Of a stretch of DNA of 7,194 nucleotides, positions 4,434-7,194 are shown in pieces. The notes below the pieces were generated by a model. The model did no database searches. It had not been told where the DNA came from and saw only the letters and a program-made list of their open reading frames with translations. Position numbers and translations under genes: made by a program. Origin of the DNA: Nitrospinota bacterium (GTDB taxonomy: Bacteria > Nitrospinota > Nitrospinia > UBA9942 > JAHJSF01); assembly GCA_018830405.1 (NCBI GenBank), contig JAHJSF010000028.1, forward strand, positions 1 through 7,194, in the 5' to 3' direction. Every line of letters begins with the position of its first letter. The first letter of the stretch is position 1.

Positions 4434-4509
4434 TGGCTCCCCGGGACGGATTCGAACCGCCGACAGGGTGGTTAACAGCCACCTGCTCTGCCAGCTGAGC
4501 TACCGGGGA
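4434..4509 (-). tRNA. tRNA-Asn (anticodon GTT)
   Basis: The reverse complement folds as a full cloverleaf. Acceptor arms TCCCCGG (4509-4503) and CCGGGGA (4444-4438) pair perfectly, followed by discriminator G (4437) and an encoded CCA (4436-4434). The anticodon stem GGTGG/CCACC encloses the loop CTGTTAA, with anticodon GTT at 4476-4474, reading Asn codons AAC and AAU. The T arm carries GGTTCGAATCC. Length is 76 with CCA. It stands alone between a candidate promoter upstream and the shared terminator downstream. Confidence 0.97.
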
Positions 4510-4609: not shown

Positions 4610-4730
4610 TAACAACCCCCTTACTCCCCCTTTTCTAAGGGGGAATTATGGGGAGAATTGCAGTAGAGTCCCCCTTGGAAAAGGGGCATCCAACGATTCC
4701 CCCTTAACAAAGGGGGATAGGGGGTTGTTA
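4610..4730. repeat. 121-bp palindromic MITE-like element
   Basis: The ends are inverted copies: TAACAACCCCC-TTACT-CCCCCTTT on the left and AAAGGGGG-ATA-GGGGGTTGTTA on the right, differing only by 2 bases in the spacer between the C/G blocks. Inside are three further C5/G5 hairpins: 4626-4643, about 4670-4686 and about 4699-4715. The outermost bases are TA on both sides, which fits insertion at TA by an IS630/Tc1-mariner type transposase, although with only one copy the duplication cannot be proven. It encodes nothing. It lies between the tRNA-Asn promoter region and the 3' end of porAB, where its hairpins could also help end or stabilise the porAB transcript. Confidence 0.75.
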
Positions 4731-4736
4731 GCGTTT

Positions 4737-4754
4737 AAATGCGGCTTTGCATTT
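4737..4754 (-). terminator. Weak hairpin at the end of porAB
   Basis: AAATGC and GCATTT surround a 6-base loop, overlapping the first base of the porAB stop codon region. No proper T run follows on the minus strand, so it is at best a weak terminator. The adjacent MITE-like hairpins may do more. Confidence 0.25.
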
Positions 4755-7012
4755 TAGAGGTCCGGATGCTCATGCATGGCCTTCAAACGTCTCCAACGCC
4801 TATCGACCTCTTTCTCAAAGGACTCTACAATATCATCATAGTCAGACTTCATCAGGTGCTTGGTCTTCCCCATATGCTTGAACCATTCACGGGCAGGAAC
4901 CTTCTTCCCCTTGGCCTCAGGATCATAGTTTAGGGTTGTAACCCCTCTTTCCACCTCATAGAGAGGGAAGAAGTTACAATCGACCGCCGCCTGAATAAGC
5001 TCCTGAGCACCGCCGGCCTCACTCCTCCAGTTAAGCGGACAGGCGGAGAGGAATTTACCATAAACCAATCCCTCATGCTTGGCATACCATTGCGCCTTGG
5101 CCGCCTTCCTAATCATATCCTTATAGTTCGACTCTACCGCAGTAAAGACATAGGGGATATGGCAGGAGGCAAACAGCTGGACAGTATCCTTATGCTGTCC
5201 ACGCTTACCGCGTCCAACCGTTCCGACATTGGATGTGCTGGTGACATGTCCAAGCGGCGTGGCATAGGAGAGCTGGTTACCTGTGTTCATGTACCCTTCG
5301 TTATCATACTCGAGGATGATCATGTTATGGTTTCTGAAGGCTGTTCCGAGTGCCGGTCCAAGACCGATATCAAGACCCCCGTCACCGCTAACCAATATAA
5401 AGGTAATATCCTGATCCTGAGGAATCTCTCCCCTTCTCTGTCTCTCCTTATACATATCAACCAAACCGCTCAAGGTTGCGGAGCCGTTCTGGAAGAGATT
5501 GTGGACATAGTTAACATTAAAGGATGTATGAGGATAGGAGGTGGTAACAACCATTCCGCAACCTGTGTGCCAGAGCATAACAACATGACCCGTAATCCCC
5601 TTTAAGAAGGTATTGATATTGGGGAATATTCCGCAGCCCGGGCAGGCGCTGTGTCCGGGGACAATACGTCTCGGCATGGCGGTAAGCTCGGCCGCCTTGA
5701 CCCCCTTGGCCTCTATAATATTCTTCTCCTTATTCTCGGTAACAGTAATAATACAGGGAGAGGCCGCCTCTTTGGTAATGGGCTCGGAAACCTTGGCAAA
5801 CTTGAAGTTCGGGTCACCGGCGGTTGCTCCTATGTAATCGTAGGGAACGGCAACCTTACCAGTCTTAGCAACCTCGAGGGCGCTCTCCAGCATTTCAATA
5901 GCATCTTCAAGGTAGAGGTCCTTCCCGCCAAGGCCGTATATGCGGCTCAAGACAAGAGATTTATTGGCAGGGTCGCTCTTTAGGGCAGCCTTTACCTCGG
6001 AAGACATACTCCCCCCCATACCGTTGAACGACTCAGCCCTATCGGCAATCAAGACCGCTTTGGCCTTTCCAAGGGCGGCCACAATCTCTTTAGCCGGGAA
6101 TGGGCGTATAACAGTCGGATAAACCAAGCCAACCTTCTTCCCTTCTTCCCTCAACTTATCAATCGCCCCACGAACCGTGTCGGCAGCCGAGTTGAGGATA
6201 AAGATAATCGCATCGGCATCCTCGGTACGGTATGTTTCGATCATCTTATAGGAACGGCCGCTCAGCTTGGCATACTCTTCATACATAGCCGGCAAGGCTT
6301 CATAGGCCTCCTGCATAGCCATGCTCAGCTGTTTTTTATTGTTTATCTGATCCGGGTCGTTCATCAATGGGCCAATGGTAATCGGATTGGCCACATCAAC
6401 CGACGTATACAAAGGCTGATACTTACCGATAAACTTGTAGACAGACTCTCTGTTATCGTCAAAGTAGGAAACCCTTCTTTTCTGATGGCTGGTTATAAAA
6501 CCGTCATAAGAAACTATGGCCGGAAGTCTAACCTTTTCGGCAATCTTGAGAGCGATTATATTCATGTCGTAGACCATCTGCGGGTCTTTGGCCAAGAGGA
6601 TTATCCAACCCATATTTAGGGTAGTCATTATATCGGAATGGTCGCAGCGGATATCTATCGGCCCGGAAACGCTTCGGTTAACAACGTTTAAAACCATCGG
6701 GAAACGTGTCCCCGACTGAGCCGGTAACTGCTCTATGGCGTACAGCAAACCGTTAGCCGAGGTGGCGTTAAAAACCCTTCCCCCTGCTGTAGCGGCACCG
6801 TAACATATACCGGCAGCCCCATGCTCACCGTCGGCCGGAATCAGGTGTACATCATGTTCCCCGTTGGCTCCCATCTCGTCAAGATATTCTGCTATCTCGG
6901 TAGATGGTGTAATCGGGAAATACCCCATAACGTGGTAATTGATATGGGCTGCGGCGATAGCAGCCATCTCGTTACCGCTTCTAAAGTCTATCTTCTGCTT
7001 ACCTTTAGTCAT
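4754..7012 (-). CDS. Pyruvate:ferredoxin oxidoreductase, alpha and beta subunits fused
   Basis: The enzyme interconverts pyruvate plus CoA with acetyl-CoA, CO2 and reduced ferredoxin in the cytoplasm. The 752-residue chain joins two subunits that are usually separate. Residues about 9-230 are the PorA pyrimidine-binding domain (GYFPITPSTEIAEY at 30-43; PADGEHGAAGICYGAATAGG at 59-78; VVNRSVSG at 110-117). About 265-370 form PorA domain II (ADAIIFILNS, YPTVIRPFP). A linker of about 55 residues (390-445) leads to PorB: GHSACPGCG at 453-461, TPP/Mg motif GDGGLDIG at 543-550 with EYDNEGYMNTGNQ at 568-580, and a PorB-like tail (VPAREWFKHMGKTKHL). Cys457, Cys460, Cys485 and Cys658 fit the four ligands of the PorB [4Fe-4S] cluster. 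The ATG at 7012 follows GAGGAG by 8 bases. The gamma and delta (ferredoxin-like) subunits are not in the window, though they may lie upstream beyond 7194. Pyruvate is the likeliest substrate; another 2-oxoacid is not excluded. Confidence 0.9.
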   Translation of the reverse strand: MTKGKQKIDFRSGNEMAAIAAAHINYHVMGYFPITPSTEIAEYLDEMGANGEHDVHLIPADGEHGAAGICYGAATAGGRVFNATSANGLLYAIEQLPAQSGTRFPMVLNVVNRSVSGPIDIRCDHSDIMTTLNMGWIILLAKDPQMVYDMNIIALKIAEKVRLPAIVSYDGFITSHQKRRVSYFDDNRESVYKFIGKYQPLYTSVDVANPITIGPLMNDPDQINNKKQLSMAMQEAYEALPAMYEEYAKLSGRSYKMIETYRTEDADAIIFILNSAADTVRGAIDKLREEGKKVGLVYPTVIRPFPAKEIVAALGKAKAVLIADRAESFNGMGGSMSSEVKAALKSDPANKSLVLSRIYGLGGKDLYLEDAIEMLESALEVAKTGKVAVPYDYIGATAGDPNFKFAKVSEPITKEAASPCIITVTENKEKNIIEAKGVKAAELTAMPRRIVPGHSACPGCGIFPNINTFLKGITGHVVMLWHTGCGMVVTTSYPHTSFNVNYVHNLFQNGSATLSGLVDMYKERQRRGEIPQDQDITFILVSGDGGLDIGLGPALGTAFRNHNMIILEYDNEGYMNTGNQLSYATPLGHVTSTSNVGTVGRGKRGQHKDTVQLFASCHIPYVFTAVESNYKDMIRKAAKAQWYAKHEGLVYGKFLSACPLNWRSEAGGAQELIQAAVDCNFFPLYEVERGVTTLNYDPEAKGKKVPAREWFKHMGKTKHLMKSDYDDIVESFEKEVDRRWRRLKAMHEHPDL

Positions 7013-7033
7013 TATTTTTGCTCCTCTATCTTG

Positions 7034-7194
7034 GTGCTTAATTGCCTAAATCTTGCTGTAGCCGACCGGCCTTTGACGCAGCCGGCTTTGTTGTCAATCC
7101 TCGCCATAGACCACGCTATGGCTGCGGTTGTCTTCGCGCCAGCCGCGCCAAATTCTCGGTCTTGATACTGACGCAGACTTAGGCAACTAAACAC
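7034..7194 (-). repeat. Long imperfect palindrome just upstream of porAB, candidate structured RNA leader
   Basis: The outer arms 7034-7053 and 7175-7194 are inverted copies with 17 of 20 identities. A middle pair, 7075-7086 and 7138-7149, matches at 9 of 12. An apical stem GCCATAG/CTATGGC (7103-7109, 7116-7122) closes on a 6-base loop. GACCG/CGGTC plus TTT/AAA can pair between the outer and middle stems. Read as minus-strand RNA, all six differences in the outer and middle stems become G-U pairs; on the plus strand they would be A-C mismatches. The fold ends 7 bases before the porAB ribosome binding site (7026-7021), so it could form in the porAB leader. It may extend past the window. It could be a structured leader, a small RNA, or a dispersed palindromic repeat. 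A 60-codon open frame across it looks like a by-product. Confidence 0.6.

Follow-up and report, generated by a model that had tools for sequence, protein, structure and literature searches.

A large hairpin located directly ahead of porAB in the window (the whole analysed stretch of DNA, 7,194 nt in length) is probably a non-autonomous IS5-type element that is moved in trans, with source copies under selection for folding, either as RNA or as one DNA strand. We propose that a copy of a dispersed MITE-like family landed immediately upstream of porAB to give this hairpin, and that the family belongs to a wider group of ~150-200-nt palindromic elements characterized by a common tip and by divergent arms and ends. 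Elements of the group would spread as DNA, most likely mobilised in trans by IS5-family transposases that use CTAG/YTAR-like target sites, and their source copies would also be selected for single-strand folding, most simply as RNA read in the core direction. The proposed selection on folding is suggested by the common tip together with the strand-specific G-U pairing.

On the minus strand, the region 7034-7194 is predicted to form a single 161-nt hairpin of -83.7 kcal/mol, as compared with -53.4 +/- 3.8 kcal/mol for dinucleotide shuffles (z = -7.95; 0 of 200 shuffles as stable), whereas the plus strand folds at -60.3 kcal/mol (z = -2.95). The minimum free energy structure of the minus strand contains 60 pairs, including 53 Watson-Crick and seven G-U pairs. 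The initial annotation had stated that all six differences between the arms give G-U pairs on the porAB strand, and the fold recovers each of them, namely U4-G158, G8-U154, and G17-U145 in the outer stem and G47-U119, G51-U115, and U54-G112 in the middle stem (element positions). It also reproduces the 7-bp apical stem with a 6-nt loop, and the claimed distance of 7 nt between the element edge and the porAB ribosome binding site holds as well. The minus-strand element begins with GTGTTTAGTTGC at 7194 and finishes with GCAATTAAGCAC at 7034. The window represents an entire contig, the end of which coincides exactly with that of the element; most likely, the assembly was broken by this repeat. 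The parts of the hairpin and its porAB neighbours are listed in Table 1.

Table 1. Coordinates of the hairpin element, its structural parts and the adjacent porAB features in the window.
Feature	Position	Strand	Basis
Whole element, short form, 161 nt	7034..7194	-	Same ends in same-genome copies (BLASTN, covariance model)
Left terminal arm, 20 nt (outer stem 5' half)	7175..7194	-	85% complementary to 7034-7053 (repeat search); 20/20 pairs on minus strand
Right terminal arm, 20 nt (outer stem 3' half)	7034..7053	-	Repeat search and fold
Middle stem 5' half, element positions 43-57	7138..7152	-	Fold; rich in G-U; covaries among copies
Middle stem 3' half, element positions 109-123	7072..7086	-	Fold; covaries among copies
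Apical region common to several families	7082..7140	-	Model R2 match, 62.7 bits, E 1.1e-16
Conserved core CGCAGCCATAG..CTATGGCGAGGA, including the apical stem-loop	7098..7126	-	Exact pattern match
GCA/GA internal loop of the core	7123-7125 and 7101-7102	-	
Bulged A of the core	7098	-	
GAGGAG, porAB ribosome-binding-site-like, outside the element	7021..7026	-	Sequence; 7 nt past the element 3' edge (7034)
Single ORF, PorA (aa 12-395) and PorB (aa 449-746), outside the element	4754..7012	-	ORF list; NCBIfam matches

The porAB ORF encodes 752 aa that span both PorA and PorB, and every NCBIfam equivalog score for this ORF is under its cut-off. Downstream of porAB, the window contains a tRNA-Asn (gtt) gene at 4434-4509 on the minus strand. 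A second palindromic repeat, ACAACCCCC..GGGGGTTGT, stands alone at 4611-4728. Two adjacent plus-strand ORFs at 1438-2271 and 2292-2570 resemble, by eye, one split outer-membrane-type protein, and look like the products of a frameshift or an assembly error.

The initial annotation had raised the possibility of a repeat family in which RNA pairing is maintained from copy to copy, and had suggested a search for covarying copies. In the 1.42-Mb genome from which the window derives, BLASTN with the window element gives 42 matches and the covariance model R1 gives 48, amounting to about 50 copies in total. Short, non-coding, bounded by 20-nt terminal inverted arms, and dispersed in multiple copies, the element has the attributes of a MITE. 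Nearly all intact copies begin with GTGTTTAG and finish with AAGCAC. The two main forms are 161 nt and ~192 nt long, the latter having an additional ACAACCCCC..GGGGGTTGT hairpin at the tip (e.g., locus L050, positions 1428-1619); in addition, there are shorter copies of 54, 115, and 143 nt that represent deletion forms. The junctions of the additional hairpin vary among the long-form tips and both of its orientations are present, suggesting that nested insertions or tip swaps took place several times separately. Two copies, at loci L012 and L020, share an identical right flank and have different left flanks, as a result of either inter-copy recombination or misassembly.

With respect to the neighbouring genes, 11 copies are in the sense orientation to both, 11 are antisense to both, 11 lie between divergent genes, and three lie between convergent genes; the remaining eight are at contig ends, as expected for a repeat that breaks assemblies. 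Outside this genome, the gene that follows the element on its 3' side is antisense more often than not (46 of 64), a bias that recurs neither in Tibeticola (11 of 19) nor in this genome (14 of 36), these counts being dependent on an ORF caller that is crude in high-GC DNA. The random orientation of the copies in this genome argues against a role in host gene expression and indicates that the position ahead of porAB is incidental. A recognisable sigma-70 promoter was not found near the window element.

Pairing is preserved on one defined strand throughout the family. All 41 full copies in the genome are more stable on the core strand, with mean energies of -80.6 vs. -64.2 kcal/mol. Over these copies, the paired positions comprise 1863 Watson-Crick, 228 G-U, and 40 A-C cells, where an A-C cell corresponds to G-U on the opposite strand. 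Compensatory changes are observed at ten pairs, with 33 cells altered on both sides vs. 10.4 in shuffles. On the tree of the copies, G-U changes outnumber A-C changes by 53 to 32 over all branches (p ~0.03) and by 43 to 28 on the terminal branches (p ~0.10). The G-U excess is weak on the terminal branches, hence the bulk of the skew sits in old, shared variants; in our reading, inserted copies decay almost neutrally and source lineages retain the pairing.

A similar pattern emerges from a wider set of 94 elements that constitute 17 clusters. The core strand is the more stable one in 16 of the 17 clusters, so that the suggestion of a repeat family retaining RNA pairing gains support both within the genome and beyond it. 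Arm mismatches over the clusters amount to 49.5 G-U and 15.0 A-C, with G-U in the lead in 14 clusters and A-C in one; of the 15 informative clusters, 14 are skewed the same way (sign test, two-sided p ~0.001). The inner stems of the wider group have a covariation score of 0.273 vs. 0.085 +/- 0.016 in shuffles.

The elements of this group are related by their tip, AACCRCAG-N-hairpin-N-CGAGGATT, which recurs in otherwise unrelated-looking palindromic repeats from at least six bacterial phyla (Pseudomonadota, Desulfobacterota, Selenomonadales, Nitrospinota, Planctomycetota, and Hydrogenedentota). At least 120 stretches of GTDB species genomes carry the core pattern, against a chance expectation of about one by our own calculation; core conservation within this exact-pattern set is partly by construction, a bias from which the R1, R2, and plasmid BLASTN matches are free. 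Among the matches listed, the hosts include Burkholderiales, Thiomonas, Nitrosomonas halophila, Formivibrio, Geobacter argillaceus, Desulfobacterales, Desulfovibrio, and Selenomonadales, as well as one Planctomycetota MAG and one Hydrogenedentota MAG. Model R1 matches two places in another genome of the same Nitrospinota class, where the arms and ends differ and the tip is identical. The covariance model R2, which was built from the tip, matches in seven of 77 genomes of the phylum Nitrospinota, two of which contain 17 and 23 copies; in these two multicopy families the apical stem itself is altered with compensation. The element at locus L067, in the genome matched by R1, is the same as that at L188 (JACRGO010000190.1, a Nitrospinota MAG), and the elements at loci L157 and L168 (Proteobacteria MAG) resemble the window element over its full length and have CTAG on both flanks. 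Scanning of genome contigs with the DNA pattern of the arm of the window's own family returned no match. In Roseateles sp. YR242, two cores are situated ~100 bases apart (L163:6079-6211), like one element inside or against another.

Related elements were also detected, including by BLASTN, between the genes of a few plasmids. A phage or plasmid origin was rejected, given that the window element is unmatched in phage and plasmid collections and the core is absent from the viral contigs scanned. Membership in a known Rfam RNA family was likewise rejected for lack of a gathering-score match: in Rfam 15, the window copy yields nothing relevant even to E 10 (one chance-level match), and for 12 loci with related elements the SRP RNA alone was matched, which is unrelated. 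Literature searches with the core and end sequences matched only unrelated papers, and those by topic gave no description of the group, though work on Polaromonas JS666 or Chunjie may cover one family.

The link to IS5 comes from two other genomes. In Tibeticola sediminis, 222 terminal-repeat matches correspond to ~110 copies, and nine out of ten complete copies, each of 161 nt, are flanked by exact 4-bp target duplications of the YTAR type, such as CTAA, TTAG, and CTAG. The same genome contains a 1.18-kb element that starts with GGCAACGCTGAACAAC, is bordered by TTAA on both sides, and encodes a transposase matching the IS5 model NF033581 (E 4e-101). Its IS5-family counterpart in Roseateles oligotrophus starts with GGCAACGCTGAACAACC and is bordered by CTAG on both sides. 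The terminal repeats of these two insertion sequences are identical to those of the respective local hairpin elements.

By extension, the window's own family would be mobilised by an IS5-type transposase. Transposases matching PF01609 (DDE_Tnp_1) and PF13358 (DDE_3, IS630-type) were not found in its genome, the assembly of which is 87% complete and in which repeats assemble badly. None of 43 own-genome copies has an exact 4-mer target-site duplication, with ~4 obtained by shuffled pairing. The flanks of the copies are CTAG-like on both sides yet unequal, the left flank being CCAG in 17 cases and CTAG in 13; excision that removes copies with intact junctions is a possible cause of this inequality. 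An IS630-type origin, of the ERIC, Correia, and RUP kind, was dismissed based on the absence of PF13358 and on paired TA flanks, of which nine were observed vs. 14.6 in shuffled pairs.

Several other explanations of the hairpin were weighed. The initial annotation had considered a cis-regulatory leader of porAB, in agreement with the position of the element 7 nt upstream of a ribosome-binding-site-like sequence and in the same direction as porAB. This role now appears very improbable: the ~50 copies are at unrelated sites, beside unrelated genes, with no orientation preference, and BLASTN detected no copy in 60 relatives, so the element is not a conserved feature of porAB. The insertion may nonetheless affect porAB, and any such effect would be a by-product. 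Another explanation holds that the element is an ordinary IS5-type MITE, in which the G-U skew and the common tip are relics of ancestry rather than signs of present selection on folding. It is consistent with the weak skew of post-insertion changes and with the fact that the 17 clusters have some core-adjacent sequence in common and thus are not fully independent. Against it, the arms are almost wholly different between clusters yet complementary, the inner stems covary far above shuffles, and the uniform skew of 14 out of 15 clusters would require either repeated selection or repeated coincidence. We regard this explanation as quite improbable.

A somewhat stronger competitor, albeit still an unlikely one, is that selection acts on one strand of the element as single-stranded DNA, and that the element is moved or recognised as a folded strand. 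G-T wobbles pair in DNA too, and IS200/IS605 elements and integron attC sites are known to move or to be recognised as folded single strands. The strand-specific wobble and the conserved tip fit RNA and DNA alike, and both the random gene orientation and the absence of promoter-like sequence near the window element suit mobility rather than host transcripts. However, the exact 4-bp duplications and the inverted terminal repeats held in common with an IS5-family DDE element indicate transposition of double-stranded DNA, and IS200/IS605 elements are not known to have such ends. Returning to the proposed IS5-type element with source copies selected for folding, the molecule under selection would most simply be RNA rather than single-stranded DNA; in sequence alone the two look alike. 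A bolder version, which we consider possible though doubtful, is that the tip would represent a structured RNA, widespread yet undescribed, with IS5-type elements as its carriers in at least six phyla, and that its folding would be needed for their spread, for example through binding of the transposase or of a host RNA-binding protein.

Small palindromic repeats are usually regarded as insertion sequence debris in the DNA. In this group, one tip structure persists across phyla as arms and ends change, and pairing is retained on one defined strand only, which makes the role of repeat RNA or single-stranded DNA in the spread of the elements directly testable in cultured hosts. In addition, the two covariance models could allow annotators to spot a repeat class that is missing from Rfam 15.

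Several known systems are comparable with the hairpin group. As described in the relevant passages of two reviews (PMC2229807, PMC10969869), the ERIC and Correia/NEMIS repeats are non-autonomous intergenic elements of 100-200 bp whose transcripts form long stem-loops, some of which are cleaved by RNase III or alter mRNA stability. They differ from the hairpin group in their TA-type termini and narrow host ranges, and these passages describe no common core across phyla. According to the section on YPAL/RU-2 of Yersinia (PMC2229807), these ~168-bp palindromic repeats are not A+T-rich and have predicted recent mobility; they have internal inverted repeats and duplications of 3-26 bp, whereas the hairpin group has terminal repeats and, in Tibeticola, 4-bp duplications. 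The IS5-family insertion sequences of Tibeticola (locus L233) and Roseateles (L239) share their terminal sequence, GGCAACGCTGAA.AA, and their type of 4-bp target duplication with the local hairpin elements. In contrast to the hairpins, they encode a 320-aa transposase, and the core was not found at the insertion sequence locus; the ends of the window family also differ from theirs. In the case of MITEPsy1 from Pseudomonas syringae pv. phaseolicola, a non-coding element of 100 nt was shown to move; its 18-nt terminal repeats resemble those of the IS5-family ISPsy2, its insertions at CTAG or YTAA duplicate 4 nt, and its secondary structure is not mentioned (PMC3189936). Compared by size, ends and target sites, the hairpin group resembles MITEPsy1 in being small and non-coding and, in Tibeticola and Roseateles, in having the ends of an IS5-family element, with 4-bp duplications at CTAG/YTAR-type sites in Tibeticola; the window family differs in length (161 or ~192 nt vs. 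100 nt). The hairpin group is best placed within the known kind of IS5-type MITEs, and its novelty lies in the strand-specific tip that is common across phyla.
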